28,458 nucleotides of DNA, from the IMG/VR virus record IMGVR_UViG_3300001533_001440, positions 1-28,458 of that record; one strand, 5' to 3'. Below the pieces are notes generated by a model that was not told where the DNA came from, ran no database searches, and worked only from the letters and a program-made list of their open reading frames with translations. Below, one piece after another: positions 2,774 to 24,407 of the stretch (its first letter is position 1; each line of letters opens with the position of its first letter). The stretch comes from a virus. The translations under genes were made by a program, and so were the position numbers.

Positions 2774-2958
2774 AAAAGAACTGGAAAGAGTCAGAATTAA
2801 TGATGAACCCGATAATGACGCCTTCCAGAAGAAAGGCAATCAAGACAATAATGAGAAGGAGAAATGTTTCTTTTGAAGATGCTATGAAAATACAAGCTAA
2901 AGCAATAACAAGAGAACAAAACAATGCCATTACCAAGTCCATCAAAAAAAGAGGATAA
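2770..2958 (+). CDS. Small basic protein, 62 aa
   Basis: Begins with an ATGA overlap on the chaperonin stop codon, so translation is probably coupled. The product is short and strongly basic (PSRRKAIKTIMRRRN in the middle) and predicted helical, with no signal or membrane segment. It is not GroES: that protein is about 95 residues of beta structure with a mobile loop, none of which is seen. A nucleic-acid or capsid-associated role is possible from the charge alone, but I do not recognise the family. Its end overlaps the next small gene by 35 bases in a different frame. Confidence 0.55.
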   Translation: MKKNWKESELMMNPIMTPSRRKAIKTIMRRRNVSFEDAMKIQAKAITREQNNAITKSIKKRG

Positions 2959-3070
2959 AAATAAATTTATTTCCCGTTGTATGTCAAACAAAAACATACA
3001 GAAAGAGTTCCCAAGCAGAGATCAAAGAGTTGCTGTTTGCCATAGCCAATGGAGAAAAAGAAAAAAATGA
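2924..3070 (+). CDS. Conserved small phage protein, 48 aa (FISRCM / QRVAVCHSQW type)
   Basis: A short complete gene with the pattern MPLPSPSKKEDKNKFISRC, then EFPSRDQRVAVC and SQWRKRKK. From memory, this arrangement (MPLP..., F.SRCM, FP...QR.AVC.S.W) is a small family found widely in phage genomes, often near terminase or head genes and sometimes fused ahead of prohead proteases. Two conserved cysteines are in the expected places (residues 19 and 36). No function is established that I know of; the Cys pair could bind metal. It overlaps the previous gene by 35 bases and the next by ATGA, and it ends in an A-rich run (AAAAAAA at 3061-3067) just before the stop. Confidence 0.75.
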   Translation: MPLPSPSKKEDKNKFISRCMSNKNIQKEFPSRDQRVAVCHSQWRKRKK

Positions 3071-3192
3071 AAACTATTAAAGATATATTCTGGTTAATAA
3101 TAGGGTTAATCTGTTTTATCCCAGTAATGTTTATTATTTTAATGGGGTTTATTTATGAAAAGTGTGTTTATAGAACGAAAAAAGTTAATTGA
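3067..3192 (+). CDS. Small single-pass membrane protein, 41 aa
   Basis: Starts by ATGA overlap with the previous stop. It encodes a 41-residue peptide with a short basic N-terminus (MKTIKD), then about 20 hydrophobic residues (FWLIIGLICFIPVMFIILMG) and a basic C-terminal tail. This is a clear single transmembrane helix. Small one-helix proteins in phage late regions are often holins, antiholins or spanin parts, but nothing beyond size and topology supports that here. It overlaps the next membrane peptide gene by 38 bases in another frame. Confidence 0.55.
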   Translation: MKTIKDIFWLIIGLICFIPVMFIILMGFIYEKCVYRTKKVN

Positions 3193-3307
3193 AATAACAG
3201 GTATAGCAACTTGGTTTGGATGGATGTTAGCTGGAGTAGCAGGATACTGGTTATTAGCAATACCATTATTTATTATCAGTGTTTTAATAGTATTAATCAG
3301 GTTATAA
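3155..3307 (+). CDS. Small membrane protein, 50 aa
   Basis: A 50-residue product with a charged N-terminus (MKSVFIERKKLIEI) followed by about 33 mainly hydrophobic residues containing Gly and Trp (ATWFGWMLAGVAGYWLLAIP and on). That is enough for one long or two short membrane helices. The gene lies inside the 3' part of the previous membrane gene in a different frame, and its TAA shares one base with the ATG of the terminase small-subunit candidate (TAATG). A holin-like role is possible but unproven; it is placed directly before the packaging genes. Confidence 0.55.
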   Translation: MKSVFIERKKLIEITGIATWFGWMLAGVAGYWLLAIPLFIISVLIVLIRL

Positions 3308-3705
3308 TGGATAATAACAAAACAAAAGAAGAAGAAAGTCAAGAGGTAAAAACAGAGAAGAAAGCAGTGAAAGCGGTGAAGGAGGACAATTTAACGCCTT
3401 GGAAACCTGGAGAGTCAGGCAATCCAATGGGAAGGCCAAAAGGAAGTAAGAATTTTAGTACTAAATTTAAGCAGGCAGTAGAAGTAATAGCAAAAAGCGA
3501 GGAAAAGTCAGTTGATGAAGCGATGTTAGAGATATTTAAAACTGCTTATGATCAGGCAAAGAAAGGAAACTTTAATTACTTCAAAGATTTAATGGACAGA
3601 GTATATGGTAAACCAGTTCAAAGAATAGATGCTAAGAGCGAGGTAAGAGAGGTTTCGATAGTTAAATTTGTAGATGGTATGAGGAAAATAGCCGATGAAG
3701 AGTAA
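3307..3705 (+). CDS. Putative terminase small subunit (DUF5681-like)
   Basis: The small terminase recognises phage DNA and hands it to the large subunit. Evidence: position directly before the large terminase, suitable size (132 aa), a Lys/Glu-rich N-terminus, and the motif WKPGESGNPMGRPKGS (residues 29-44). That motif is the signature I associate with DUF5681, common in phage and mobile-element proteins beside terminases. The start at 3307 was chosen because it joins the preceding gene by TAATG; the frame is open back to an ATG at 3211, but those codons lie inside the upstream membrane gene. The C-terminal half looks helical, with a VYGKPVQRIDAKSEV segment. It overlaps the large terminase by 11 bases. 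Confidence 0.7.
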   Translation: MDNNKTKEEESQEVKTEKKAVKAVKEDNLTPWKPGESGNPMGRPKGSKNFSTKFKQAVEVIAKSEEKSVDEAMLEIFKTAYDQAKKGNFNYFKDLMDRVYGKPVQRIDAKSEVREVSIVKFVDGMRKIADEE

Positions 3706-5101
3706 ATACTCACAAATTGTTAGTCATAATTTCAGGAATAGTGAAGGAGAACCATTTGAATTAACTCCAAGTCAGGAGGATATATTTAGAATTATATTTA
3801 CAAGAAGATATCCAAGAGTTCAATGTATTACTTATACCCAGTTCGGCAAGTCTGATGTTTCAGCAATATCTGCCTTAAGCAGAGTAACTGTCTTTCCAGA
3901 GAAGTGGGCAATAGTAGCGCCTTCAACAAAGAAAGCAGGAATTATAATGGGATATATCATTGATCATATCTTTGATAATCCTGTATTTAGACAGCAGTTT
4001 AAAATAAAAGAAGGAGAAGATATAGAAAGAATAAGAAGAGAGAGAAGAAAGGATTATGTTACCTTTAACTTGGGCAGGGGAGAAATAGGAGGAGTTTATA
4101 CTTTATCTACTGAAGGCAAGAGAACAAAAGATGTATTAGATGCTATTATGGGATTTGGAGCAAAGAATATAGTGTTAGATGAGAGTTCCCTTATTTCAGA
4201 TCAGCAGTATGCAGGAGTAAAGCGTATGCTGGGAGGTCATAAAGACAATTTTCTGTTTGAAATAGGAAACCCGTTTAGAAGAAATCATTTCCTGAGAACA
4301 TGGAGAGATCCAAACTATCATCATATTTTAGTGGATTATAAGCAGGGGATTAAAGAGGGAAGAATAACAGAGGAGTTTATTGATGAGATGAGAAGAGAAA
4401 AGTTCTTTGATATTATGTATGAGTGTAAGTTCCCGGAAGAGGAGGCGATAGATACAAAAGGATATATGTCCCTGGTGACAGAAGCAGATCTTGATAGAGC
4501 TTATGTAGAGGATATTAAGATATTCGGAAGATTAAGGATGGGAGTTGATGTTGGAGGAGGAGGTTCGGGTAAATCAGTAATCTGTTTAAGGGGAACAAAT
4601 GGAGCAAGAATACCGTATAGTGAGCGTAGTTCTGACACAATGAGTCTTGTAGGAGAGACATTAAAGTTTAAAGATATGTATGGTGTAAAAGCAGAAGAGA
4701 TATTTGTTGATGCTATTGGAGTGGGAAAAGGTGTTTCTGATAGATTAAACGAGCATTTTGCCATTGATTTCAAGAAAGTAAACAGAGTTGTCTGGGGGAG
4801 TAAGCCTTATAAAGAGGATTTTATCAATTCAAAAGCAGAGAGTTTCTGGGGCCTAAAAGAGTGGATTAGAAATGGTAAGTTGGTAAGACACAAAGGCTGG
4901 GAGGAGCTTTTAAATATAAAATACAAGATACAGTCAGACAAAAAGGTGAAGATAATATCAAAGGAGGATTTAATAAGAGAGGGTATTCCTTCTCCTGATC
5001 ACGCTGACGCTTTGGCATTAACATTTAGTAAGCCAATGTCTTTTACAAACAAACCTAAAACATTCCGGCCCAATATAACGGGGATTGGAAGAACAAGATG
5101 A
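3695..5101 (+). CDS. terL: Terminase large subunit (ATPase and nuclease)
   Basis: Motor that pumps DNA into the prohead and cuts it. Of 468 residues, the ATPase half has a degenerate Walker A, TQFGKSD (48-54), a Walker B with hydrophobic residues ending in Asp162-Glu163 (IVLDESS), and a GNPF coupling-type motif at 191-194. The nuclease half shows the RNase H-like acidic set: Asp285 in GVDVGGGG, Asp339 in FVDAIGVG, and Asp435/Asp438 in PDHADALAL. The length is normal for the family. GAGGA lies 9 to 13 bases before the ATG. It overlaps the small-terminase candidate by 11 bases and the next gene by ATGA, so packaging genes are co-translated. Confidence 0.95.
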   Translation: MKSKYSQIVSHNFRNSEGEPFELTPSQEDIFRIIFTRRYPRVQCITYTQFGKSDVSAISALSRVTVFPEKWAIVAPSTKKAGIIMGYIIDHIFDNPVFRQQFKIKEGEDIERIRRERRKDYVTFNLGRGEIGGVYTLSTEGKRTKDVLDAIMGFGAKNIVLDESSLISDQQYAGVKRMLGGHKDNFLFEIGNPFRRNHFLRTWRDPNYHHILVDYKQGIKEGRITEEFIDEMRREKFFDIMYECKFPEEEAIDTKGYMSLVTEADLDRAYVEDIKIFGRLRMGVDVGGGGSGKSVICLRGTNGARIPYSERSSDTMSLVGETLKFKDMYGVKAEEIFVDAIGVGKGVSDRLNEHFAIDFKKVNRVVWGSKPYKEDFINSKAESFWGLKEWIRNGKLVRHKGWEELLNIKYKIQSDKKVKIISKEDLIREGIPSPDHADALALTFSKPMSFTNKPKTFRPNITGIGRTR

Positions 5102-5550
5102 AACATCCAATTGTAGCTTTATCATTTGGCAAAGGGAAAGCTAATGAGTGTATATCTGCAAGTGTATATTATTTTTTACGCTTATTTAAAAATGAGGGAT
5201 ATCAATTGATACTACAAGAGGAGGTCGCTGATTCCTTTAAAAATTCTAAGGTTATTTCAAAACATCGCTGTCCGGGAAAGTATTTAGATACCTATGAGGT
5301 ATTGTCTCAGGCAAAAGAATACCTATGTGAAACGCCAACGATCATATTAATAGCCCATCCAGATCATCTTCCAAGGACAATAAGAACAGCAAAGATGCTT
5401 GGTTTCAAGGTAATACCCATTCCTTCTGTAAGATGTTATGATAAAAAAGATGCTCAATGGTGGGTAAGAGGACGTGTCAGGTTCTTTTTCTGGAATATAA
5501 TAGCTAATTTATCTTTATTATGGAGGAGAATAAACAAAAGATCTCTTTAA
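5098..5550 (+). CDS. YdcF/ElyC/SanA (DUF218)-like protein
   Basis: A 150-residue product whose second half reads TIILIAHPDHLPRTIRTAKM (81-100) then LGFKVIPIPS. This matches the conserved strand-HxPR-helix of DUF218 proteins, where cellular members typically read S.HMPRA. A DTYEV segment (64-68) sits where that family has its T.EN motif. The usual Gly-rich N-terminal loop is weak, so this is a small or divergent member. Cellular relatives act in envelope or peptidoglycan-related processes, mostly poorly defined. The C-terminus (WWVRGRVRFFFWNIIANLSL) is amphipathic and could touch membrane. It is coupled by ATGA to the terminase gene. Function in the phage is unknown. Confidence 0.6.
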   Translation: MKHPIVALSFGKGKANECISASVYYFLRLFKNEGYQLILQEEVADSFKNSKVISKHRCPGKYLDTYEVLSQAKEYLCETPTIILIAHPDHLPRTIRTAKMLGFKVIPIPSVRCYDKKDAQWWVRGRVRFFFWNIIANLSLLWRRINKRSL

Positions 5551-5738
5551 CAGAGAAGCAGAGTATAGTTTTTAACTGGTTTTACAGGTATTATCCTATC
5601 TGGGAGAAGGTATATTATGATAAGGAAGTGATGGGAGTTACCTTGCATTTGAAAGAGAACAAAGATATAGGGAAGGTTCAATTAAATGTTTTTCCCCGTG
5701 AGGAAGGGAAAAAAGACTTGACAAAAAATATAGAATAA
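5520..5738 (+). CDS. Hypothetical protein, 72 aa
   Basis: Starts 31 bases inside the end of the previous gene, in another frame, and encodes a soluble, charged protein. An aromatic patch (IVFNWFYRYYPIWEKVYYD, residues 16-34) is followed by a short beta-like segment and a Lys-rich tail. No recognised domain, signal peptide or membrane helix. Its last codons contain the -35 element of the promoter that follows, so its 3' end is also regulatory DNA. Function unknown. Confidence 0.55.
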   Translation: MEENKQKISLTEKQSIVFNWFYRYYPIWEKVYYDKEVMGVTLHLKENKDIGKVQLNVFPREEGKKDLTKNIE

Positions 5739-5745
5739 ATATAAT
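5718..5745 (+). promoter_or_regulatory. Sigma70-type promoter upstream of the portal gene
   Basis: Perfect TTGACA at 5718-5723, a 16-base spacer and perfect TATAAT at 5740-5745. Transcription should start near 5752. It is the best promoter match I found in the window and sits at the boundary between the packaging and head genes. The product would begin with a leader of about 86 bases that contains the hairpin described next. Confidence 0.75.
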
Positions 5746-5768
5746 GTAATAAAGGCCCTATCGTAAGA

Positions 5769-5830
5769 AGAGGGGTGTAAATATTATGTTGATTTATGTC
5801 AGCATACATTTGCACCTCTCTTTATTTTTT
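5769..5830 (+). terminator. Long hairpin with T-tract (terminator, attenuator or leader structure)
   Basis: The left arm from 5769 (AGAGGGGTGTAAAT) pairs with the right arm ending at 5821 (ATTTGCACCTCTCT), 14 pairs with two G-U wobbles. After one mismatch and a bulge, the stem continues through TATGTTGAT/GTCAGCATA-type pairing to a four-base loop near 5794-5797. A T-rich run (TTATTTTTT, 5822-5830) follows directly, as in an intrinsic terminator. It lies downstream of the promoter at 5718-5745 and 7 bases before the portal ATG. It could stop that promoter's transcripts to give a small RNA of about 80 bases, act as an attenuator, or terminate the packaging operon. Confidence 0.65.
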
Positions 5831-5837
5831 AAATATT

Positions 5838-7799
5838 ATGATTGGAGATTTTAACACTGATAAAGACGGGAATGTAATAGATGAGCCATCTTTATTCCAA
5901 CCGTCTGAAGCAGTAAAAACATTAACACAACAAGTTAAACAGGACTATCAGACAGGACACCTGATTAATCACAGGGTTTTCAGGGAGTTTAATGATATGT
6001 CCCTGATTCAAAGAATGGACGCTGATCAAAAAGCGTGGAATTCTTATGTTAAGCCAAAATCAGACGATCCAGATGAAGGATGGAGATGGAACGGGGTAAG
6101 ACCTGTTACCAGAAACAAGATTATATCAATAGCAGCTCATTTAACTGCTACTATTTTATTTCCAAATGTATTTGCCCAGAATGATCAAGATGAAGATGAT
6201 AGAGAGGCAGCAGAAGTAATGAGATATATGATTGAGTGGAATATCAGAAACTCAAATTATGAGTTGGCTTTTCTTCATTTTGTTATATCTGCTCTGGTAA
6301 ATCCTATTTCTTACATGAAAGCAGAGTTTGCCGATGTAATGCAGAAAGTAAAGGATAAGCTGGAGAATGGTGAGATAACAACAGAAGAAGCGGTGGATGA
6401 TGTAATGTCAGGATTTAATGTCTTTGTTCTTCCAGCAGACGGAATAATGATATCCAACCCTTATGAGCCAGAGTTGCAGAGACAGCGCTTTATTATCAGG
6501 AAGAGGTTTATAGGTTTTGACGAAGCTCAGGGGTTATATGGGGATCATCCTAATTTTGAATATATCAGTCCTGGAGTTAAAACACTTTACAATGATCAGG
6601 ATGGAATGTTCTATCAGCAGAAGAATGATGAAGTTGATACACTGGTAGAAGAGGTGATTTACTATAATCGCAGAGAAGATATTGAAGTTATTTATGTTGA
6701 CGGAATATATCTGGGAGATACAAACCCTGAAGAGAATAGAATGAAACATAGAACAAACAAGAACAAGCCCAAGTATCCGTTTGTCAAGCTTATATTTGAA
6801 TCAATTGATGAGAGCTTTTTCTTTGGTAGATCTTCAGCAATGAAACTTGCTGATGATCAAGAGTTAACTGACAGGATGTGGCAGATGGTAATGGATGGGA
6901 CATTTTTACAGGTAATGCCTCCAATAGGAGTTTATGGGGAAGAAACAATATCAAGCAATGTAATGTTTCCTGGTTCTGTGACTAACTTTGGAAGAGATTC
7001 TCAGGCTGCTCCATTGACAACTGGTGGTAATTTAAACGCTGGACTTCAGGCATTAGAGCTTGTTAAGGGTTCAATGGAAGAGAGTTCCCAGTCAGATATT
7101 AGACAGGGAATACAGTCAAAGGGCAATCAAACTGCTTGGGAGATAGCAAGATTAGAGGAAAATGCCAGAATTCAGCTTGGATTGTTTGGCAAAATGCTTG
7201 GAAAGGCAGTAAAGGACTTTGGAGAATTGATGGTTGACTTGATTATTCACAATCAGACAGTAGCAGAAGTTGAAGGAGTATTGGCCGGTGATGTGAGAAT
7301 GAAATTCAGAACATTCCTTTTAGAAGATCAAGTTCAAGATGGGAAAAAGATTACCCGTAAAATAAACTTTGATGAAAATCTTATTGGAAAGAAAATGACA
7401 GAGGAGGATAGAATAAAAGAGAGTTTCAAGATAATGGAACAGGAAGGAGGACTGGATTCAAAGTCCCGTATTTACAAGGTTAATCCAGAGAAATTTAGCA
7501 GATTGAACTTTAAGATATTTATTGAGCCAGATAAGCTTATGCCTAAAACAGAAGCATTTGAGAAGGCAATAAAGCTTGAAGCGTATGACAGAATGATCCA
7601 GAACCCTTACGTAGATCAGGAGGCGGTAACAAGAGACTTCCTTGTAGAGACAGTAGCGAAGGGAGAGTCTGACAAATATATGGCTAAAAAGAGTTCTCCT
7701 ATTGCAGGAGAAGCTGAAGGAGGCAGTTCTTCTCTAATAGACCAGACAGCTAAAGGAGAAACAAGGTCGGCTAAAAATTTATTAAATCAAAATGTATAA
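5838..7799 (+). CDS. Portal protein (podovirus-type head-to-tail connector, 653 aa)
   Basis: Forms the ring at the capsid vertex through which DNA enters and leaves. Evidence: large size, position after terminase and before scaffold and capsid, and typical portal segments such as KPKYPFVKLIFESIDES (about 309-325) followed by FFFGRSSAMKLADDQELTDR (about 326-345). A SDIRQGIQSKGNQTAWEI-type stretch and a long helical C-terminal region follow. I chose ATG 5838 (MIGDFNTDKDG); the frame is open to an ATG at 5796, but those codons lie inside the hairpin and give an unlikely N-terminus. There is no Shine-Dalgarno; the ATG is preceded by TTTAAATATT. The C-terminal tail is Gly/Ser/Lys-rich. The last bases overlap the next start. 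Confidence 0.88.
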   Translation: MIGDFNTDKDGNVIDEPSLFQPSEAVKTLTQQVKQDYQTGHLINHRVFREFNDMSLIQRMDADQKAWNSYVKPKSDDPDEGWRWNGVRPVTRNKIISIAAHLTATILFPNVFAQNDQDEDDREAAEVMRYMIEWNIRNSNYELAFLHFVISALVNPISYMKAEFADVMQKVKDKLENGEITTEEAVDDVMSGFNVFVLPADGIMISNPYEPELQRQRFIIRKRFIGFDEAQGLYGDHPNFEYISPGVKTLYNDQDGMFYQQKNDEVDTLVEEVIYYNRREDIEVIYVDGIYLGDTNPEENRMKHRTNKNKPKYPFVKLIFESIDESFFFGRSSAMKLADDQELTDRMWQMVMDGTFLQVMPPIGVYGEETISSNVMFPGSVTNFGRDSQAAPLTTGGNLNAGLQALELVKGSMEESSQSDIRQGIQSKGNQTAWEIARLEENARIQLGLFGKMLGKAVKDFGELMVDLIIHNQTVAEVEGVLAGDVRMKFRTFLLEDQVQDGKKITRKINFDENLIGKKMTEEDRIKESFKIMEQEGGLDSKSRIYKVNPEKFSRLNFKIFIEPDKLMPKTEAFEKAIKLEAYDRMIQNPYVDQEAVTRDFLVETVAKGESDKYMAKKSSPIAGEAEGGSSSLIDQTAKGETRSAKNLLNQNV

Positions 7800-9766: not shown

Positions 9767-10705
9767 ATGTATAATTCAGGAAACAATTCAGAATTAGTCA
9801 AGACGTCTTTAGATGAGGTATTTTATTCTGAGTTTGATTATGACTCCGAACCTGGAATTGTAACTGCAAGAAATCCTTTGGCTTTTAAGCAGTCTTCAAC
9901 TGACAGGGGAGCAGTTATAACTTCAGAATATCAACCTCCAGGAGCTTGGGAAGAACACATTGAAGAGGAAGAGAGAACTATTGCTACAGTAAGGACAGAC
10001 AACAAAACTACTCATTCAGTAGCTAATTACAAGAAAACTTTGAAGATTCCTCAGGAATTCTTTGAAGATGACTTGCACGATTCTGTCCGAAATAGTGTTA
10101 ATAAGGTTGCTTTTAGAGGAAGAACTACTCAGGACAAAAATGCTTTAGACATTTATGCTGGTGGATTTGACTCTACTACAACTTCTGACGCTGCTTATCT
10201 GTGGAGTAATTCTCATACTGCTTTGAATGGATCAACTATTGACAACATTGAAACAGGAGCTTTGACTGCCAGTAATCTTGAAACTTTAGTTAAAGCATTG
10301 CTTGAACAAAAAGCTCAAGATGGCGATTTAGGCGGACATGTTCCTCAAGGAATGTTGGTTCCTACTGCTTTATTCCCAGATGCTCTTGAGATAACTAAGT
10401 CAGAATTGAAGTCCGGTAGTACTGATAATGATTTAAACTACTTTAGTTTAATCTATCCAGGAATGCAGGTTCTTCAATCTCCTTACCTTGGTGCTTCTTA
10501 TCACTCTTATGCTAATGCTGACACTTCTCATTACTTAATTGGAAGACAACATTCTATAACCAGATGGGTTAGAATACCCGTTGAGACCAAGTTAGTTCCA
10601 CCTGACACCGATGATCAGGACAGATGGACTTACAAGGCTCGTTATAGAGAAGTTGTTGCTCCTGTTAGTTGGGAAGGTGCTGTTGCAAGTAATGGTACTA
10701 CATAA
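9767..10705 (+). CDS. Major capsid protein (HK97-fold type)
   Basis: Builds the icosahedral shell. Of 312 residues, the N-terminal arm is followed by a VANYKKTLKIPQEFFEDD segment, then AYLWSNSHTALNGS (about 143-156), ALTASNLETLVKALLEQKAQ (about 165-184), PQGMLVPTALFPDALEI and NYFSLIYPGMQVLQSPYL. This order of a polar loop, a long helix and a 'LVP' strand is what I expect of HK97-fold capsid proteins in the Mu gpT-like range. Position after scaffold and decoration supports it. There is no Shine-Dalgarno; the ATG is preceded by AGATATTT. Lys is used in the N-terminal half, but I cannot tell whether crosslinks form. Confidence 0.85.
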   Translation: MYNSGNNSELVKTSLDEVFYSEFDYDSEPGIVTARNPLAFKQSSTDRGAVITSEYQPPGAWEEHIEEEERTIATVRTDNKTTHSVANYKKTLKIPQEFFEDDLHDSVRNSVNKVAFRGRTTQDKNALDIYAGGFDSTTTSDAAYLWSNSHTALNGSTIDNIETGALTASNLETLVKALLEQKAQDGDLGGHVPQGMLVPTALFPDALEITKSELKSGSTDNDLNYFSLIYPGMQVLQSPYLGASYHSYANADTSHYLIGRQHSITRWVRIPVETKLVPPDTDDQDRWTYKARYREVVAPVSWEGAVASNGTT

Positions 10706-11859: not shown

Positions 11860-13059
11860 ATGTCTTATACAATTTCAAATTTAAAAGATGATTTAACTGG
11901 ACTTGCTCACAGTACTTCTTTGAATAAGATTCAGAACAAGAATTCATTGTTTAATAGGGTAGCCAAGAAAGTATTGGCAAGAATAGATCCTCCAACTACG
12001 ATTAGGTCTCAACAGATAACAAATGCTGTTCACGGGGACATTTATGATTACTCTTGCCCTGATGATTTGAAGGGAAAGAAAGTAGTAGATATAAAACCTC
12101 AAGTAAACAGAGACGAAGGAGATAGTCTATCTCAGCGTTATTCAAAGAGGTTTGATTTGAGAAAAGGAAATAATACTTTTTATATTGCTTACAAAGATGG
12201 TGAGAGCAGACTTAGATTATCAAAAGCGATAGCTCCCTCTCCAACGGCGATTCATCAACTGAACTCAATTAGCGACAATGGAACGTGGGTAGTAGGAGGA
12301 GACGCCGAAAACTTAGCAAAAGATACTCTTCATCATGTTGACGGTAGTGCTTGTCTTAACTTTGATTTAGATGGCTCCGGAACAACAGGATATATAGAAA
12401 ATAGCACTATGACTGATATTGATCTTGAAGATTTAGATGAAATAGCCCAGATTTTTGTCTGGGTTTATTTACCTGATGCTTCTGCTATTACCAATGTTAT
12501 TCTCAGATGGGGAAACAGTAGCACTGTTTATTGGAGTGATGCTCAAACATCTCCTCACGATCAAGATAGCTTTAAGAATGGTTGGAACTTAATAGCGTTT
12601 GACTGGAATGGAGCAACAGAAACAGGAACAGTAGATCCAACAGCAATTGATTATGTAAGAGTAACAATTACTTACGATGGAACGGCTGATACTGATTTCA
12701 GAGTAGATAAGATTAGCGCTTCTTCGGGAGAGATATGGGAAGTGGAGTATTATTCTAAATATCTTTTCCAGAGTTCTGGTGGAACTTGGAAGGAAACTAC
12801 CAATGCAGATACTGACATTATTAATCTTGATACGGAGAGTTATAACATATTTACCTTTGAGTGCTTACTGGCAATGGCTCAACAGGCGCAGGGAGAGGAT
12901 TCTTCTTTTGATATTAATTTTGCTGAGAAAGAGTTATATGGAGATCCTAATAGTCCCGACCCAGTTAGAAGAATGGGTTTATATGCTAAGTATGCAGAAG
13001 ATAATCCAAGTCAGGCAATAAAGCCAAAAGAGATTTATTGGCGATATAATGCTTATTAA
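11860..13059 (+). CDS. Putative head-tail adaptor with inserted beta-sandwich domain
   Basis: A 399-residue protein. Residues 1-125 and 290-399 look like a neck adaptor: helical N-terminus (MSYTISNLKDDLTGLAHSTS), DYSCPDDLKG and RRMGLYAKYAED near the end, with WEVEYYSKYLF (about 293-303) and INLDTESYNIFTFECLLAMA in the C-terminal part. Between them (about 135-290) is a Trp/Asp/Thr-rich beta segment (FVWVYLPDASAITNVILRWG, GWNLIAFDWNG, DYVRVTITYDG) that reads like a jelly-roll or carbohydrate-binding fold inserted in the adaptor. The place between capsid and tail-hub genes supports a neck role, comparable to P22 gp4 or T7 gp11, but I do not claim homology. The insert could make contact with the outside. 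Confidence 0.6.
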   Translation: MSYTISNLKDDLTGLAHSTSLNKIQNKNSLFNRVAKKVLARIDPPTTIRSQQITNAVHGDIYDYSCPDDLKGKKVVDIKPQVNRDEGDSLSQRYSKRFDLRKGNNTFYIAYKDGESRLRLSKAIAPSPTAIHQLNSISDNGTWVVGGDAENLAKDTLHHVDGSACLNFDLDGSGTTGYIENSTMTDIDLEDLDEIAQIFVWVYLPDASAITNVILRWGNSSTVYWSDAQTSPHDQDSFKNGWNLIAFDWNGATETGTVDPTAIDYVRVTITYDGTADTDFRVDKISASSGEIWEVEYYSKYLFQSSGGTWKETTNADTDIINLDTESYNIFTFECLLAMAQQAQGEDSSFDINFAEKELYGDPNSPDPVRRMGLYAKYAEDNPSQAIKPKEIYWRYNAY

Positions 13060-16286: not shown

Positions 16287-17909
16287 ATGGTTAAAACAAC
16301 AGTAACAGTAACAGATCAATATCCAGAAGTTGAAGCTCAAAAACGCTATGAAGAGCTTGTTAAGGCAGGCGCTCCCTCTGATTTAGCATTAAATGCTGTA
16401 AGGCAGATTCCCGGAGCAGGAGGATTTGCTCCCTCAATTACGGGAGGTGGTGAAGATATTGGAGTTGTTTCAAGTCAAGATGCAAGAGACAAGGTAGATG
16501 AAGATATTGATAGATTAAATAAAATAGAAGAAGGTGAAGAAGGTTTTGAGAAAGATGAGATAAAAGAAACAAAAGACAAGAGAGAAGATGTTTTATCTGC
16601 GGATGAAAAAGATGCTCTTGGAATAGAAGACGAAGAACCAGAAGAAGAAAAGAAAATAAGGGAGGATGTAGAAAAAATAGATGATGAGATTGACGATATA
16701 GAAGACGATCTTGAATCTTGGAAAAAAAGCTACGATACTTTAACTAACACTTTAATTACTAATATCCAAGAACAGTACGAGAGACGAAGGAGCAAATTAA
16801 AAGATATAAACAAACGTGCCGCTGAGAGTTTGCGTACTTATGGAATGAGAATGGGAACGGCAAGATATTCTCCTCTAATCGCTACCGGAGTAGTTTCAGC
16901 CGAAGAAAGGGCTGGTCAGGCAAGACTTGCCGACTTAGACGCCGAAGAAGCAAGATTGATAACTGAAGCAAAGATGGCCAAATCAGAACAGGATTATTCA
17001 ATGCTTAGAGAAAAGATGGGTGAACTGGAAGCAAAGAGAGCAGAGAAGATGCAGGTACTTGAAGATTTACAGAAAGCAACCTTAGAGCATAACAAGGAGG
17101 TAGCAGAAACAGAGAGAGGGGTGCAGATAGATAGTAGGGTTGCTGCTCTATGGGATGTTGACATAACCGATCCTGTTGATATTTATAATTTACTTAATCC
17201 TTTAAAGGATGATGGAAGTAGAACTAATGATATTACTTTAGATGAAATAACTTCCAGAACAAAAACATTGCCTGGTGTGAAAACAGAAGAGGAATGGTCA
17301 GAAAAACTATTAACTCCAGATCAGGCTATTAAATACGGTGTTTCTCTTGGCACAACGTGGGGCCAAGTTTCAGAAGCGGGGATAGTTCCTGAAAGGTGGC
17401 AAGAGGGTAAGGAGGACGAAGGTGAAGGGTTAGATAGAGATGAGCAGTGGGATGCTGCTATTGGCTTTGTAGAGAACAATATAGATGAGGAGGGTTTTGA
17501 CTATGAGTCTGCCGATATGTGGTTAAGGAGATTAGCTCCTAAATTAACTGACGCTGATATTAAGAGTATTTTAAGTAATGTTGGATTAAAGCCGGCTAAA
17601 GAGAGAAAAAAAGAAGAAGAGGAAAAAGAAGAAAAGTTTTTAAAGCTTGAAGTAGAAGATGATGTTGATATAGATTTCAATAGTTACATAAAGAAATTCT
17701 TTACAGAAGGAAATCTTGAAGATGCTGTTAAGGGAGCTGGCAAGGCAGGTGGAATTGTTGGTTGGTTTGTTAGTGATAAAGAGATGAATGATTATCTTAG
17801 TTCCTTAAGAGAAACCGCAAAAGCTTATAGAGGACAGGGATACAATGATAAAGAGATATGGAACAGTCTTTACAATAAAATACAAAGCGATATTAAAGCT
17901 AAGGGTTAA
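16287..17909 (+). CDS. Large helical internal virion protein candidate, 540 aa
   Basis: A Glu/Lys/Asp-rich, mostly alpha-helical product. Residues about 60-160 are very acidic coiled coil (KIEEGEEGFEKDEIKET and on), about 160-290 a second coiled coil with Arg/Ala (RRSKLKDINKRAAESLRTYG, ARLADLDAEEARLI). The C-terminal part has short helices and a small Gly-rich patch (KGAGKAGGIVGWFVSD) that could insert in membrane. Such proteins placed after the tail hub of short-tailed phages are often stored in the head core and ejected into the host. It lies two bases before the 1895-aa gene and probably works with it. Confidence 0.55.
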   Translation: MVKTTVTVTDQYPEVEAQKRYEELVKAGAPSDLALNAVRQIPGAGGFAPSITGGGEDIGVVSSQDARDKVDEDIDRLNKIEEGEEGFEKDEIKETKDKREDVLSADEKDALGIEDEEPEEEKKIREDVEKIDDEIDDIEDDLESWKKSYDTLTNTLITNIQEQYERRRSKLKDINKRAAESLRTYGMRMGTARYSPLIATGVVSAEERAGQARLADLDAEEARLITEAKMAKSEQDYSMLREKMGELEAKRAEKMQVLEDLQKATLEHNKEVAETERGVQIDSRVAALWDVDITDPVDIYNLLNPLKDDGSRTNDITLDEITSRTKTLPGVKTEEEWSEKLLTPDQAIKYGVSLGTTWGQVSEAGIVPERWQEGKEDEGEGLDRDEQWDAAIGFVENNIDEEGFDYESADMWLRRLAPKLTDADIKSILSNVGLKPAKERKKEEEEKEEKFLKLEVEDDVDIDFNSYIKKFFTEGNLEDAVKGAGKAGGIVGWFVSDKEMNDYLSSLRETAKAYRGQGYNDKEIWNSLYNKIQSDIKAKG

Positions 17910-17911
17910 TT

Positions 17912-20900
17912 ATGGCTATTGATTTTTCTGCTTTTGGTAAAAAAGCAACTACAACTGTAGAGGGTATAAAAGAGAAAACTTCTGGAAAAGAAAAAACTCC
18001 AGGAATTGATTTCTCTGCTTTTGGATTGTCAACGACAAAAGAGTATCAGGAGTCTGTTGTAGAGTACGAAAAGCAGAAGAAGGAATATATTAAAGAAGTT
18101 GAAGATTTAAAACAAAAAGAAAAGATAAGAAAACTTGGTCTTGAGGCGATAGCTGCTGAACAGGTTAGAGGTGAAAGAGAAATGAGAACGGGATATCTTT
18201 CAAGAAGATTAACAGTAGGAAGAGTTCCTACGGTGCAAAAACAATTTGAAGCTACTGAAGTATATAAAGAATTAAAACCAGGTATAGAAGCTGCTTTAAA
18301 AGGAACAGAAGATATTTTAACCCAAAAAGAAAAGGAACTTGGTGAAATCGATACCTCTCTTAAATTACCGGGTTGGGTTTCCTCTTTTATGAAAATACCA
18401 GCTACTATTCATGAAGAACTTGAAGAGAGGGGTGTAGTTGGAAAGATGTCTCCCGGCCAACAAAGACTGGTAAAACAGATGGAGATTCAGAACATTAAAA
18501 GTTCTATTGATACTTATAAAGAGTATTTAAATAAAAAGACGAAAGATCCTAAGTTAGCAAGTGAGTTTTTAGCAGGAATAGGAGAAGGTCTTGTTAGAGA
18601 TAAGACAAGTAAAATTCCTTTTTATGGATCTCTTGTGAGGTTTGCTGAATTAGCAAATACAATAGATGCTGCCAAGAAAATGGAGAGAGGAGAAGAATTA
18701 ACTGATCTTGAGAAATCATTAGTAATGAAACAACAAGCAGAGGGGTTACCATTAGATAGAAGTATAATGAAGAGTGCAGGAACTGTTGCTGCTGAAATGC
18801 CTACCTTTATGATAGAGTTTGCTATGTTAGGAGGGGTGAAAAGGGTTGTTTCAAAAGGACTTCAAAGATATGTTGGAAAGAAATTACCAGCAAGGGTTGC
18901 TACCTCTATTGTTGGAGCTACATTACAGGGATGGACTAATGTCCCAGAGCTTTCAGAAAAAACAGCAGGGTATTTAATTCCTAATTATGAAGAATTACAA
19001 AATCCCGCAGTAAAGCGAGTCTTTGGAGAATTAGAAAAAGAAGTATCTTTTGAAGAAGCTCTTATTCAAGCAATGGGAACTCAGGCTGTTGAATATATTA
19101 GTGAGTACGCAGGATTAGTTGTAGAGAAACCTATGTCTTTTTTACAGAAAGCTACACTTGGAAGATTTTTAGCGAGATATGGAGTAACTCAAGCACCAGA
19201 AAGAGTTGCTGGAATAGCAAGAAGGTTTGGATGGAATGGTATTATTGGAGAGATCTTTGAAGAAGAACTTGCGGAATTGTTTCAGGCCCCAATAGAAAAG
19301 CGTCCTTATTATAATCCAACAACGCCAGAAGGAGTTGATAGACTTTTAACAGAAACTCTTGGAATATCTGCTTTTGGAGGATTATCTGGAATATCTGCTA
19401 ATACAATAGCAAAGATTAGTGATTGGAGAATGAATAATATGGTAGAGAGAGCTGACTTTGATGTTCCCAAGATCAAGCCAGTTGAAAAAGTTACTACTGG
19501 ATTTAAGGAAGATACTAATTTAAGAGAAAGAATGGCAAGAGACGGCTATGGACTATGGTCTATTTTTGAAGATAAGGATGTAGCAGTAGAGGAGGGATTA
19601 AATAAGTTTGGAGATAATTTTAAATTAATAAAACATATTTCATCTAAAGAAACAGGGGCAAGATCAACTTATGAGGTATATGTTAAAGGAGTTCAGGATA
19701 TCTTTACAGCTAAGAAAGAAGAAGCTAAACCAGAAGTCCCCAAAGAACTTGAACCAGTAACTAAAAAACCTACTTTTAAAGCAGGTGAAATGAAAGTTAT
19801 TCAAGAAAAACCTCAGGGCTTAGAAGTTTCAGGAAGACCAGGATCTTCAATCTCTTGGCCATACATTGAAATGTCTGCTAAGAGTTTAATAGATGCCTCA
19901 CGCCAAGCATTGCTGGATTTATCAAATTCAAATAAGCGAATTTCATCCGATGTTACAATTCTTTTAAATACTCCATCTTCAAAATTGAAAAATGATGTTT
20001 CTTTCATACGATCTTACGCTAACATATTTAATAAAATAAGTAAAGTGGAAAAGTCAAGATATGATAGTTTGGTTAAAGAAACTATAAAAGATGTGTCAGG
20101 AGCAGAATTTATTGGATCAAGGATTAAAGAGGTTGGTAGCCTACAAAACAAGATTACAAAAGAATTATCAAGGGAAAGAAGTCCTTTTGTTATCAAAGAT
20201 GTTTTAGGGGGTAGAATATTAGCTCAAAATATTGAAGTAGTAAATAATGTTCTTTCAAAGATTAAGAATCTTGATGTGGTTGGATTTAGGGATTATTTTA
20301 CTAAGCCAACAGAATTTGGATATAGAGGAATTAATCTTAATATTAAACTTCCGAATGGAATAATAGCTGAAATACAAATACATACTCCTGAATCCTTAAA
20401 GATAATGAATGAAATTCACGATACTTATTATAAAAATAAAGAGTGGAAAAATAATGAGACTGAAGATTATAAGGAAAACGTAAGAAAGGCCAGGGAAATT
20501 GCCGATAGTATTTGGGAGAAAGGAAAGGAAGAAGTTAAGATTGAAAAGCTAAAAGATATTGAACGTGTAGAGGAGGCAGAGGCGCAGGTTTGGATGGAGT
20601 TAGATGCGGCAGAAGCAGGTAGGAGGATAAAAATTAGCGAAGCTACTCAACAACAACAAGCAACCTTTTTAGGGTTACCATCTACTTTTCCAAAATGGAT
20701 TCCTTCTGATTTAAGAAAAACATCTCTTGTAAAAAGAGTAATGAATCACATGGAAAAAGGAACTGTTCCTAATAAGGGAAAAGTTAAAGAGTTGTATGAC
20801 GTAGTATATAACGAAGTTAAAGATAGGGCAGGGGTGGAAAAAATGCCAGAAAGAAGAAAAGAAAAAACAGAAAAGGAGTTTAGGGCTTATGTAAAAGAAC

Positions 20901-23599
20901 TTATTAAAAAAGCTACCGTTAAAGGAGATGCTTCTTTGCAACAAGTAATTAGTAAAAGTGTGAGAGGAGAGCTTGCTCCATTTATCAAGAGAAGAGAAAC
21001 TACACTCTTAAAGGAAAAAATAAGAAATATAGCTCGTGGTGCAAGAGAAGGAAGGGTTAGCACAAAAGTAGCAATCAAGAAAGTTCAGAATACATTAGTA
21101 GAGGCAATAGATAGTCCCGGTATATCTTTAAGAGAAAAAGGAAAGTTTCTTAGAACTATTAAAAATATTCAAACAGAAAGCCAGCTTAAAAAGAAACTGC
21201 CTGTGATAGAGGAAAGGATCGTAGAAGCAGAGAAGAGAGAGTTGCTGGGAGAAATTAAAGAGGAACTAAAAGAACCACTCACAGTAAAGGTGGGAGACAG
21301 AAGAGTTTCAAAGTATAGTCCAAATGTTACTAAGAAATTAAAGCAGTTTAAAGATCAGCTTTCATTTAAAAATACAGAATCATTTAAGCTTAAAAAATTA
21401 CAGATTACTCAGGAGTGGTATGAACAAAATCCTAACAGTTATCTTCCTGATAGCATTTTAGAACAATTAGAAGAGTTAAATAGAACTCACTTAAGTCTTT
21501 TGAGTAATGAAGAATTAGCAGGACAATTAACGGATATTAGGTCTTTAAAAACACAAGGAAAGACTTTCAAGAGATTAATGAGAGAAAAGAAGAAACGAGA
21601 GCATAAGGAAATAATAGATAGGTTATCAAGCGATATTACTCAAGGAAGGGAAATAAAAAAAGAACCTATTATTTCAGGAAACGAAACTAAGCTCCAGAAG
21701 ATATATGGGACTGTTAAGAAGTTTAGTCTTGGTCAGTTAACTTCTGATACTCTCTTTGATATTTTAGATGAAAAAGCTAAAGGAAAACGCTTTGAAGGTC
21801 AAACTCATAAGTATTTTCAGGGGATTGTTAATTGGGCCAGAGATGTAGAGCTGACTGGTATTACAGAATCTTTTGACCAGGTTGGAAGATTCTTAACCGA
21901 GGGTGTTGAAAAGAACTTAGAAAAGAAAGTTGATTTTGGAGATAAGATTGTTTTAACAAGGAATCAGATGATTGATGTCTATATTAAAAGCCATGACAAA
22001 GCAATATTGGAGAGTATGATACAGGGCAATAATATATCAGCTAATAAAATACAGAAAATTATTGATTCTCTGACAGATGAAGAGATAAAGTTTGGAGATA
22101 ATATTTTAAACTATTATGGGGATTATAGTTATAATAGGATAAATGAGGTTTTTAGGGTAGAAAATTATATGGATCTACCAAAGAATAAAGGATATTCTCC
22201 GATGGGAAAAGATTTAAAATATACCAAAAATGAAGAAGTTAATCTTTTAAAGAATAGTATTGAGTATGCTAAAGCTTCTGTTCCAAAGGGGCCAACAAAG
22301 AAAAGAACAGGATCTAAAGCGCCGGTAAAATTAGGGACAATAGATACATTGGTTAATCATATAATAACTGCTGAACATTATAGAGGATTTGAGTTGGCAA
22401 TTAAAGAGATGAATGCGGTTTTGTCAGGAATGAAAGAAGCAATAACTCAGGAGTTTGGATTAGAATACTACGAGGTTTTAGAGACATGGCTAAAAGATGT
22501 TGCTAATGATGGAAGATATGACGCTTCCAGTGTGGGAAAAGCATTATTAAAAATAAGAAGAAACTTTACCAAGGCATTGTTGGGAGTAAATCTTGTTACT
22601 TCTATTAAGCAGACAATATCAATCTCTGGGTTTTTAACAGAATTAGGAGAAGTACCTCTTACCAAGGGAATTGCAAATTACTGGAGCAACAAGAAAAAGT
22701 GGGATGCTTTCTGGGATGGTGTTCCTCAAATTAAGAAGAGATCAGAGATAATGACGAGAGATATAGGTGCTATTACCAAAGCAAGGAAAGATATAGATAC
22801 ACTTAGGAGAAGAAGCTCTTTATCCGAGAAAACATTAAAGTTAATAAGAATAGCAGATAAACTTACTGTCCGTTCCGGAGCAACTGCTGCCTATATAGAG
22901 TTTAGGAGACAAGGATTTTCAGAAAAAGAAGCTATTAACAAGACTCTTGGAGTTGTCAGAAGAACACAGCCTACCGGTGATATTAAAGATCTGGCAGGAT
23001 TACAGAGAGGTGGAGCATTTGAAAAGTTAATGACTATGTTTATGAATCAGCCGAACAAGTATTATAATATAATTTATGGTAACATTAGGGCGTATAAACA
23101 AGGTAGAATAACAAAAGGTCAATTATCAAGAGCATTGTTGTATTCGTGGATTGTTCCCGGAATTCTCTTTGAGTTTATATCTTCGGGTGGAAGTGGAGAT
23201 CCTGAAGATTACATTACAGCAACTCTTCTTGGGCCGTTTAGGTATATGTTATTGGTTGGAACAATAATAGAAGCAGCGAGAACTGGATTTGATTATGAAT
23301 TTTCTCCAATAAATACAATTCCTAAAAAGATAACTCAAGCAACAAGAGATTTACTTCAGGGTGAGATATTAGAAGGATTGTTAAACTTAGGAGAAGTTGG
23401 ATTGAACGTTGTGGGAGTTCCTACTAACCAGCCAGTGAGAACAGTAACAGGAGCTGCTGACATATTAACAGGAAAGACATCTGACTGGAGAAGATTGATT
23501 TGGAGTGAATGGTCTTTAAAAAGAGGAAGTAAAAAATCTCCTCAATTAGACATCCTTCCTCCTCCTTCATCAAGCAGATCCCCGAAGCCAGCATTTTAA
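17912..23599 (+). CDS. 1895-aa polyvalent-type ejected protein with RelA/SpoT-like domain
   Basis: The largest gene here. Its N-terminus repeats IDFSAFG (3-9 and 32-38), then a coiled coil (about 45-80), and long helical stretches with hydrophobic patches (about 280-330). A small alpha/beta segment lies near 530-592 and a RelA/SpoT-like nucleotidyltransferase domain at about 680-870. A GLPSTFPKWIPSDLRKTSLV segment follows, then Lys-rich helices, and a C-terminal region (about 1545-1870) with hydrophobic helices (SWIVPGILFEFIS, TLLGPFRYMLLVG) resembling the LPD38-like tails of phage polyvalent proteins. Size, place after the tail hub and domain mosaic fit an internal protein delivered with the DNA, comparable in principle to T4 Alt or N4 virion RNA polymerase. 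The enzyme domain is detailed separately. Delivery is inference. Confidence 0.75.
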   Translation: MAIDFSAFGKKATTTVEGIKEKTSGKEKTPGIDFSAFGLSTTKEYQESVVEYEKQKKEYIKEVEDLKQKEKIRKLGLEAIAAEQVRGEREMRTGYLSRRLTVGRVPTVQKQFEATEVYKELKPGIEAALKGTEDILTQKEKELGEIDTSLKLPGWVSSFMKIPATIHEELEERGVVGKMSPGQQRLVKQMEIQNIKSSIDTYKEYLNKKTKDPKLASEFLAGIGEGLVRDKTSKIPFYGSLVRFAELANTIDAAKKMERGEELTDLEKSLVMKQQAEGLPLDRSIMKSAGTVAAEMPTFMIEFAMLGGVKRVVSKGLQRYVGKKLPARVATSIVGATLQGWTNVPELSEKTAGYLIPNYEELQNPAVKRVFGELEKEVSFEEALIQAMGTQAVEYISEYAGLVVEKPMSFLQKATLGRFLARYGVTQAPERVAGIARRFGWNGIIGEIFEEELAELFQAPIEKRPYYNPTTPEGVDRLLTETLGISAFGGLSGISANTIAKISDWRMNNMVERADFDVPKIKPVEKVTTGFKEDTNLRERMARDGYGLWSIFEDKDVAVEEGLNKFGDNFKLIKHISSKETGARSTYEVYVKGVQDIFTAKKEEAKPEVPKELEPVTKKPTFKAGEMKVIQEKPQGLEVSGRPGSSISWPYIEMSAKSLIDASRQALLDLSNSNKRISSDVTILLNTPSSKLKNDVSFIRSYANIFNKISKVEKSRYDSLVKETIKDVSGAEFIGSRIKEVGSLQNKITKELSRERSPFVIKDVLGGRILAQNIEVVNNVLSKIKNLDVVGFRDYFTKPTEFGYRGINLNIKLPNGIIAEIQIHTPESLKIMNEIHDTYYKNKEWKNNETEDYKENVRKAREIADSIWEKGKEEVKIEKLKDIERVEEAEAQVWMELDAAEAGRRIKISEATQQQQATFLGLPSTFPKWIPSDLRKTSLVKRVMNHMEKGTVPNKGKVKELYDVVYNEVKDRAGVEKMPERRKEKTEKEFRAYVKELIKKATVKGDASLQQVISKSVRGELAPFIKRRETTLLKEKIRNIARGAREGRVSTKVAIKKVQNTLVEAIDSPGISLREKGKFLRTIKNIQTESQLKKKLPVIEERIVEAEKRELLGEIKEELKEPLTVKVGDRRVSKYSPNVTKKLKQFKDQLSFKNTESFKLKKLQITQEWYEQNPNSYLPDSILEQLEELNRTHLSLLSNEELAGQLTDIRSLKTQGKTFKRLMREKKKREHKEIIDRLSSDITQGREIKKEPIISGNETKLQKIYGTVKKFSLGQLTSDTLFDILDEKAKGKRFEGQTHKYFQGIVNWARDVELTGITESFDQVGRFLTEGVEKNLEKKVDFGDKIVLTRNQMIDVYIKSHDKAILESMIQGNNISANKIQKIIDSLTDEEIKFGDNILNYYGDYSYNRINEVFRVENYMDLPKNKGYSPMGKDLKYTKNEEVNLLKNSIEYAKASVPKGPTKKRTGSKAPVKLGTIDTLVNHIITAEHYRGFELAIKEMNAVLSGMKEAITQEFGLEYYEVLETWLKDVANDGRYDASSVGKALLKIRRNFTKALLGVNLVTSIKQTISISGFLTELGEVPLTKGIANYWSNKKKWDAFWDGVPQIKKRSEIMTRDIGAITKARKDIDTLRRRSSLSEKTLKLIRIADKLTVRSGATAAYIEFRRQGFSEKEAINKTLGVVRRTQPTGDIKDLAGLQRGGAFEKLMTMFMNQPNKYYNIIYGNIRAYKQGRITKGQLSRALLYSWIVPGILFEFISSGGSGDPEDYITATLLGPFRYMLLVGTIIEAARTGFDYEFSPINTIPKKITQATRDLLQGEILEGLLNLGEVGLNVVGVPTNQPVRTVTGAADILTGKTSDWRRLIWSEWSLKRGSKKSPQLDILPPPSSSRSPKPAF
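19949..20521 (+). other. RelA/SpoT-type alarmone synthetase domain within the 1895-aa protein
   Basis: RelA/SpoT-type domains move pyrophosphate from ATP to GDP/GTP, or in toxic relatives to tRNA or ATP. Seen here, in the family order: SRIKEVGSLQNKI (736-748), matching the gRvKs..Sl.Kl basic motif; KDVLGGRIL with Asp763 where Rel has its catalytic Asp264; DYFTKPTEFGYRG (794-806) matching DY...PK.nGYrS with Tyr804 at the guanosine-stacking place; and AEIQIHT (819-825) with Glu820 as the catalytic Glu323 of the E-x-Q-[IV]-R-T motif (here H replaces R). No HD-type hydrolase motif is present, so it looks like a synthetase without an off-switch. Family membership is my motif match, not a search. 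Confidence 0.75.
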
Positions 23600-23609
23600 T
23601 TAAATAAAC

Positions 23610-24407
23610 ATGTTACCAACAGAAACAAAAAACAAACTAAAGAAACTTTTAAAAATCAAGAGTAATCCAAATCTTGCTCTTTTAGAAATTACAGAACAGA
23701 TAGAAAAAGATATAAAAGAGAGAATGGAAATAGAAATGAGAATTATTAAATCAGAAATTAAAGATGAAATTAAGGCACAAGAGGGACAAATTCAGAATCT
23801 TCCTATTCAAAAGATATTGGATAATATAAAAAAGATTAAAGGAGACAAGGGTGATAAAGGAGAAAAGGGTGAGAAGGGTGACAAGGGAGATAAAGGCGAA
23901 AGAGGTGAAAAAGGAGAGAGGGGAGAAAGAGGAGAGATGGGTGCAAAGGGTGAGGTTGGTCCAAGGGGAAAGCAGGGAGTTTCCGGTGAAGACGGAAAGG
24001 ACGGTAAAATTCCCCAGAAGGGCGTGGATTACTTTACTAATAGTGATATAATGAATATAACACAAAAGGTTGAAAAGTCTCTCAGAGAGCCATTTAAAGA
24101 GCTTAGAGAGCAAATTGAAAGCTTATTGAGGGAAATTAATGTAATAAAACAGAATCGTATGGGCGGGAGAACATTACATCGTGGAGGATATGCTATGGCC
24201 TGGAATGAGCTACTTGGCACGGGAGACGGAGCTAACAAGGAATTTACCTTAAATCATACTCCTCACGAAAGCACAGAATTAATAATACACGTAGGAGGTG
24301 GAGTGCAGTTTAAAGATGATGATTATTCAATAAGCGGTAAAACTATAACTTTTGATACTGCTCCTCCGAGTGGTGCAAAGGTTAGAGCAACTTATAGATA
24401 TGTATAA
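23610..24407 (+). CDS. Collagen-like short fibre protein, 265 aa
   Basis: Three parts. A Lys/Glu-rich coiled coil (about 25-75) is followed by an uninterrupted run of 19 Gly-X-Y triplets (78-134) and a second coiled coil (about 150-185). The C-terminal beta domain (about 200-265) contains GTGDGANKEFTLNHTP and DDDYSISGKTITFDTAPPSG, a module frequent at the end of phage fibres. Many triplets are GEK, GDK and GER, whose charge pairs stabilise triple helices without hydroxyproline. It probably forms a trimer with collagen stalk and knob, as in known phage tail fibres. It overlaps the next gene's start by 8 bases, and follows the ejected protein gene after 10 bases. Confidence 0.8.
   Translation: MLPTETKNKLKKLLKIKSNPNLALLEITEQIEKDIKERMEIEMRIIKSEIKDEIKAQEGQIQNLPIQKILDNIKKIKGDKGDKGEKGEKGDKGDKGERGEKGERGERGEMGAKGEVGPRGKQGVSGEDGKDGKIPQKGVDYFTNSDIMNITQKVEKSLREPFKELREQIESLLREINVIKQNRMGGRTLHRGGYAMAWNELLGTGDGANKEFTLNHTPHESTELIIHVGGGVQFKDDDYSISGKTITFDTAPPSGAKVRATYRYV
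23841..24011 (+). repeat. Collagen-like Gly-X-Y coding repeat (19 triplets)
   Basis: Codons for Gly recur every third position from 23841 to 24011. The middle is a near-regular series of Lys-Gly-Asp/Glu and Arg-Gly-Glu units. Repetition at DNA level is moderate (GGAGA/GGTGA words), so the length could change by slippage. Confidence 0.9.

Follow-up and report, generated by a model that had tools for sequence, protein, structure and literature searches.

A giant polyvalent-type phage protein carrying a RelA/SpoT synthetase domain, encoded among late virion genes

The locus and its precedents

The DNA analysed in this work, hereafter the window, is the IMG/VR virus record IMGVR_UViG_3300001533_001440, a genome fragment of 28,458 bases. 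Coding is on one strand, and the genes recognised include those for GroEL, terminase, a portal-like head-tail adaptor, capsid, tail-type proteins, a protein of 1895 amino acids (aa), a collagen-like fibre and S/T-rich tail proteins (Table 1). The gene for the 1895-aa protein is placed between the tail-type and the collagen-like fibre genes, in the late structural cluster, and its product contains a synthetase-only RelA/SpoT (RSH) domain in which the active-site signature is intact. On balance, we favour the view that this is a polyvalent protein which travels inside the virion and leaves it together with the DNA, and in which an all-alpha C-terminal chassis would carry an RSH-type nucleotide 3'-pyrophosphokinase as a cassette.

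Iyer et al. (2017; PMC5512222) recorded RelA/SpoT domains both in polyvalent proteins of phages and in MuF fusions, and proposed that such injected proteins elicit an alarmone-like response; furthermore, (p)ppApp synthetase activity has been demonstrated for the Apk2 MuF toxins of temperate phages (PMC12226406). Given these precedents, together with at least six other giant phage proteins bearing RSH domains, the novelty that the original prediction had attributed to this arrangement does not hold. The present analysis adds that the donor site is complete and the acceptor loop of the GxN type; it also identifies the carrier chassis and places the domain at the peptidase position of the carrier family.

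The RelA/SpoT domain and its predicted active site

The Pfam family RelA_SpoT (PF04607) was matched on residues 736-843 with an E-value of 2.6e-12 (47.5 bits, cut-off 27), constituting the sole confident Pfam domain of the 1895-aa protein, and a six-frame search of the record recovered the same family at 1.3e-15. Using phmmer against PDB sequences, matches were obtained to YwaC (3.9e-7), YjbM (5.8e-7), FaRel2 (8e-4) and Tas1 (0.13). A chance motif match was rejected, since the PF04607 scores lie far beyond chance and the fold matches agree.

The original prediction had pointed to window positions 19949-20521 (residues 680-870) for an ordered series of RelA/SpoT motifs, namely SRIKEVGSLQNKI (R737, K739, S743, K747), Asp763, GYRG with Tyr804, and EIQIHT with Glu820, with no accompanying hydrolase domain. 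Its residue numbering proved correct, and all of these residues were aligned with their counterparts in a comparison that took in RelA, SpoT, YwaC, YjbM, CapRelSJ46 and phage relatives; likewise, no HD_4 hydrolase domain was found in the 28.5-kb record, itself a genome fragment. In this alignment, R737, K739, S743, K747, K750, D763, R768, Y804 and E820 are all kept. Moreover, the offsets of the R/K/S/K/K/D/R series (0, 2, 6, 10, 13, 26 and 31) reproduce the spacing of R64, K66, S70, K74, R77, D90 and R95 in FaRel2, residues whose roles have been described (PMC11782079). The closest relative of the domain sits in an 882-aa protein of a viral contig (L026), with ~35-39% identity over the domain and conservation of every active-site position, K750 being represented by R. 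Single-sequence queries of viral contigs, either with the whole protein or with the RSH domain alone, retrieved no close relatives, and none bearing the RSH domain was found in named genomes, which were searched with a limited pattern only.

Residues 665-895 were modelled with AlphaFold2 from 15 sequences (pLDDT 75, pTM 0.68). RSH synthetases alone appear among the 50 PDB matches listed for this model, the best being RelP (E 1.1e-8, probability 1.00), with TM scores that are moderate (query-normalised 0.39-0.56; target TM 0.65 for Tas1). RelP and RelQ (YwaC, YjbM), which provide the best PDB matches, share the fold and the donor site with the window domain; they differ from it in their acceptor motifs (SxH and IR versus GxN and IH), and the window domain is embedded in a protein of 1895 aa. 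According to motifs and model, the RSH domain is apparently intact as an enzyme, and activity is predicted for it.

Table 1. Features of the window, with the basis of each assignment.
Feature	Position	Strand	Basis or remark
GroEL	1229-2773
Terminase	3695-5101
Portal-like head-tail adaptor	5796-7799
Major capsid protein	9767-10705
399-aa tail protein	11860..13059	+	Homologous to a gene of the L026 virus, bearer of the closest RSH domain
540-aa coiled/charged protein	16287..17909	+	Directly upstream of the giant gene
1895-aa polyvalent-type protein with RSH domain	17912..23599	+	ATG start; C-terminal homology to giant phage proteins
N-terminal stretch, IDFSAFG twice (residues 3-9, 32-38)	17918..18025	+	Sequence
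RelA/SpoT (RSH) synthetase core, residues 736-843	20117..20440	+	PF04607; AlphaFold2 model and Foldseek
Pyrophosphate-donor (ATP) motif R737-x-K739-x3-S743-x3-K747-x2-K750	20120..20161	+	Alignment; FaRel2 spacing
Mg2+-binding D763 and R768 (DVLGGR, syn2)	20198..20215	+	Alignment; equivalents of FaRel2 D90/R95
Acceptor-loop motif G803-Y804-R-G-I-N808 (syn3, GxN type)	20318..20335	+	Alignment
Catalytic E820, EIQIHT (syn4)	20369..20386	+	Alignment
All-alpha C-terminal chassis	21527..23479	+	blastp from residue 1206; phrog_9880 over residues 1439-1856
Collagen-like fibre	23610-24407
S/T-rich tail proteins		same strand as fibre	

The carrier protein

The C-terminal half of the 1895-aa protein matches phrog_9880 (E 3.3e-35), as well as the giant genes of Caudoviricetes vir555, Cobetia phage Carin1, Pseudomonas phages AF and HU1, and Vibrio and Caulobacter phages. 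This chassis family comprises phage proteins of 2.0-3.1 thousand aa, whose other members bear LPD22, ART, PBECR, GGDEF or GNAT domains. Scanning viral contigs for the chassis yielded 28 loci; 17 of the 20 members scanned for domains have LPD22, with ART-PolyVal, LPD23, PBECR3, GGDEF and GNAT occurring in single members or pairs, and the window protein is the only bearer of RelA_SpoT among these 20. In Pfam terms, AF gp16 displays LPD22 and LPD23, and Carin1 gp32 displays LPD22 and PBECR5. Nearly all chassis relatives have an HExxH motif ~1200 residues before the C-terminus, and the RSH domain of the window protein lies ~1090-1160 residues before its C-terminus, that is, roughly at the position of the relatives' HExxH peptidase. 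In one chassis member, L087 (2-6505), the retrieved reading frame opens with an apparent GGDEF (diguanylate cyclase) cassette, which would constitute another second-messenger enzyme on the same carrier.

The AlphaFold model of the C-terminal region is all-alpha and of low confidence (pLDDT 59). Using Foldseek, 48 matches at E<=0.001 were obtained among viral models (BFVD), the best at 1.8e-16 and several annotated as polyvalent or ART-PolyVal, and nothing significant was retrieved from the PDB. LPD38 was considered as the C-terminal module and discarded, both the profile search and the profile comparison being negative; the gene downstream of the L026 domain gave no profile match to the chassis. 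Pfam and PHROGs scans detected no MuF domain in the 1895-aa protein, and no antitoxin domain was recognised in it, its size excluding the small toxSAS format.

Taken together, this is a large multidomain protein encoded among virion genes, with a module common to LPD-, ART- and PBECR-bearing proteins, as is characteristic of polyvalent proteins, and as judged from sequence its layout is one of constant chassis and variable cassette, like that of the polyvalent proteins of Iyer et al. With these it shares the giant multidomain format in the company of virion genes, the RSH domain as one cassette, and the proposed injection and alarmone-like effect; unlike them, its chassis is of the phrog_9880/LPD22 type, with neither a detectable LPD domain nor HExxH. 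The giants of Carin1 (gp32), AF (gp16) and vir555 resemble it in the C-terminal chassis and in a gene position after internal virion or lysozyme-type genes, and differ in bearing PBECR5, LPD22 and LPD23 (with a weak ART in vir555) and no RSH domain.

Gene neighbourhood

Among named podovirus-type genomes, vir555 and AF have the giant gene behind their tail and internal virion genes, and AF and Carin1 have it directly behind a lysozyme gene; in these three phages, the chassis homologues (2.0-2.9 thousand aa) are preceded by an internal virion, a lysozyme or a similar ~570-aa gene, a location which we take to be that of T7 gp16-type ejection proteins. In the window, the 540-aa gene occupies, by position, the slot of the ~480-730-aa gene preceding the giant gene in other phages, and its product gives a weak match to the tape-measure family phrog_1538 (0.0023). 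Gene order and polyvalent homology support the earlier placing of the domain in a very large structural-type protein, whose gene lies among those for late virion components; a tail hub, which had been placed next to it, was not recognised. A T7-type nozzle, tail A or gp15-like identity was considered for the 610-, 483- and 540-aa neighbours and rejected, as no sequence homology was found.

The 399-aa tail protein is 33% identical over 387 aa to a gene of the L026 virus (1e-57; hhalign probability 99.9), and no relatives of the tail proteins were found in the named genomes scanned for them. The window GroEL belongs to group I, and its gene closely precedes those for the small and large terminase subunits, an order also found in a related contig (L007, GroEL at 4901-6415; 30% identity, 1e-56); all phage-database matches of this chaperonin are below 60% identity, with 33-34% in the best ones. 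Furthermore, a Shine-Dalgarno sequence is missing from most window genes and their leaders are rich in A/T, possibly a clue to the translation signals of the host.

RelA/SpoT domains in other phage proteins

Scanning viral contigs with RSH alignments identified an RSH domain in further giant phage proteins, at least six in number, namely those of L009 (3108 aa), L021 (3099 aa), L027 (3102 aa), L036 (3608 aa), L025 (at least 2046 aa) and L092 (at least 1581 aa). LPD38 scores above the Pfam cut-off in L021 and L027, and LPD39 in L025; ART-PolyVal is present in L009 and L021, and LPD38 is weak in L009. The donor motif is altered in most of these giant relatives, with P, G or K at the position of R737 and R or G at that of S743. 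Short aromatic motifs, often doubled, were observed at the N-terminus of giant RSH proteins, including IDFSAFG twice in the window protein (17918-18025), WWSxDSPA-like motifs twice in L027 (5833-5950) and L092 (4950-5050), and FSRFG in L036 (6217-6250); possibly, they represent a packaging tag.

Diverged RSH domains were also observed in portal-adjacent proteins of 490-610 aa annotated as hypothetical, in Bordetella phage PHB04 (L002, 8008-10273) and in L012, L015, L018 and L022. In several of these PHB04-type records an HD_4 hydrolase gene lies near the RSH gene, which recalls Apk2 with Aph1, and a delivered toxin with an Aph1-like immunity is possible for this pair. On an Enterococcus faecalis plasmid (L042), a hypothetical protein (2644-3471) that displays the complete Apk2-type signature (RYT, GxN, FH) is followed by an HD-domain protein (3655-4119), a pair that by its motifs looks like an unannotated adenosine pyrophosphokinase with its hydrolase. 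In the thaumarchaeal Nitrososphaera provirus Pro-Nvie1 (L003, 5813-6445), a small RSH protein with a GxH acceptor loop is encoded directly after the portal gene.

Acceptor site and likely product

Guanosine enzymes are characterized by SxH at syn3 and IR at syn4, and the Apk2 adenosine enzymes by RYT at syn2, GxN at syn3 and YH at syn4 (Paulet et al., 2025; PMC12226406). The window domain has GGR at syn2, GxN at syn3 (GYRGIN; G806, N808) and IH at syn4 (I823, H824). The guanosine-specific SAS/RSH signature is therefore absent, and from the Apk2 signature only GxN is present, RYT and YH being missing, though the H of the latter is kept. Like Apk2, the window protein combines an RSH domain borne by a head-associated phage protein with GxN at syn3 and an H at syn4; it differs in having no MuF domain and in GGR rather than RYT at syn2. 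As for the immunity genes adjacent to Apk2 (aph1 hydrolase, iapK), no HD_4 hydrolase domain was found in the record, a genome fragment. SaEAS (PDB 8vx3; PMC12691689) carries GYKGLN and QFHT, and is thus also GxN-bearing and similar to the window domain in its GxN and QxH-type acceptor motifs and in its fold, but it is a small secreted enzyme not linked to virions. Since this enzyme prefers guanylates over adenylates (PMC12691689), the rule that GxN means adenosine only was weakened. Nevertheless, a GxN loop such as that of these delivered or exported RSH enzymes (Apk2, SaEAS) makes ATP/ADP or a promiscuous range the likely acceptor, as opposed to GTP/GDP alone.

In a maximum-likelihood tree, the window and L026 domains group with phage and Apk2-like RSH sequences, separated by a 99/98 branch from RelA/SpoT/RelP/RelQ; CapRelSJ46 and the Nitrososphaera provirus protein fall on the side of the latter, CapRelSJ46 and a few others being long branches. 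The motif argues against a strict housekeeping (p)ppGpp synthetase, and ppGpp is not to be assumed as the product, so that from the pair of activities originally suggested, ppGpp synthesis is disfavoured by the GxN/IH acceptor motif and tRNA modification stays in consideration; according to these motifs, an adenosine-type, promiscuous or tRNA-modifying activity is possible.

We consider it unlikely that the domain makes (p)ppGpp as housekeeping synthetases do and triggers the host stringent response, as its acceptor loop is GxN rather than SxH, its syn4 is IH rather than IR, and its tree position is outside the RelA/SpoT/RelP/RelQ clade, even though RelP/RelQ enzymes rank first by sequence, RelP ranks first by fold, GGR at syn2 is RSH-like, the GxN-bearing SaEAS prefers guanylates, and an alarmone-like response was proposed by Iyer et al. 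(2017; PMC5512222). A toxSAS-like enzyme modifying tRNA would account for the FaRel2-like donor spacing, which includes R95/R768 (R95 contacts the acceptor adenine in FaRel2), and CapRelSJ46 likewise has a Gly after the loop Tyr-x (GYSG); however, CapRelSJ46 lies across the 99/98 split, albeit on a long branch, and neither an antitoxin nor a pseudo-zinc finger domain was recognised in the 1895-aa protein, so that this activity appears quite improbable.

Predicted delivery and proposed mechanism

By analogy with polyvalent proteins, injection of the 1895-aa protein is likely. Its homology to polyvalent proteins located after internal virion proteins makes packaging and ejection a sound expectation, and among polyvalent relatives packaging is established for P1 DdrB and N4 vRNAP (PMC5512222). 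In the mechanism that we propose, a few copies held in the head or tail would enter the cytoplasm together with the genome, host ATP would be bound at R737/K739/S743/K747/K750 with Mg2+ on D763, and an acceptor stacked against Y804 would receive the pyrophosphate of this ATP on its 3'-OH. This acceptor would likely be ATP/ADP, or adenine and guanine nucleotides promiscuously, and may include the 3' adenosine of tRNA. As a consequence, host nucleotide metabolism or translation would be throttled in the first minutes of infection. A bacterial cell contains a few million ATP molecules. With a turnover like that of SaEAS, ~1e5 per minute (PMC12691689), a few delivered copies could suffice against such a pool. 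A more detailed scenario, namely that a podovirus-type phage delivers, as part of its ejection protein and with no immunity gene, a working 3'-pyrophosphokinase for nucleotides (adenosine-type or promiscuous) or for tRNA, for immediate host takeover, the RSH domain having replaced the peptidase of the chassis family, is offered as a tentative and rather doubtful one.

Several points weigh against a packaged and ejected polyvalent enzyme. The window protein has no HExxH peptidase motif and no LPD22, and no LPD domain scores above the Pfam cut-off in it (LPD14 at 15 bits versus 27; LPD38 none), an LPD domain or HExxH (MPTase) being common but not universal among published polyvalent proteins. 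In addition, nozzle and internal virion proteins of the T7 type have no counterpart by sequence among the neighbour genes, and no virion proteomics was found in the papers searched for Carin1, AF or any chassis homologue. The GxN-bearing but guanylate-preferring SaEAS indicates that the acceptor motif does not fix the product. Finally, an ATP-consuming, toxin-like enzyme could harm the phage, which also needs ATP; this need, with no hydrolase in the fragment, would imply a limited dose or rate, or a hydrolase encoded in the missing part of the genome.

The gene's place within the late structural cluster, together with the fact that no virion proteomics was found for any chassis member, would also fit an enzyme that acts late in the producing cell, in assembly, lysis or competitor exclusion, and is not delivered; this seems improbable to us, as the chassis family holds an ejection-protein-like position and P1 DdrB and N4 vRNAP are packaged (PMC5512222). 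Very unlikely, lastly, is an enzymatically silent domain serving as a structural or nucleotide-binding spacer, or as a decoy for host RSH-based defences: the eroded donor motif of related giants indicates that the RSH fold can persist without a classical donor site, but none of the donor and catalytic positions has been lost from the window or the L026 domain (K750 being R in the latter), although the two are only ~35% identical.

Significance

If active and delivered, the RSH domain of this polyvalent-type protein would be an early-phase effector that reaches nucleotide second messengers or tRNA ahead of all phage gene expression. This is the case predicted by Iyer et al. (2017), and we found in the literature no test in an ejected protein of such kind. 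With its full donor site, kept in the window and L026 domains and eroded in other giants, the domain is a good candidate for a biochemical test, and the comparison of a constant C-terminus with varying cassettes provides a way to choose further injected enzymes.
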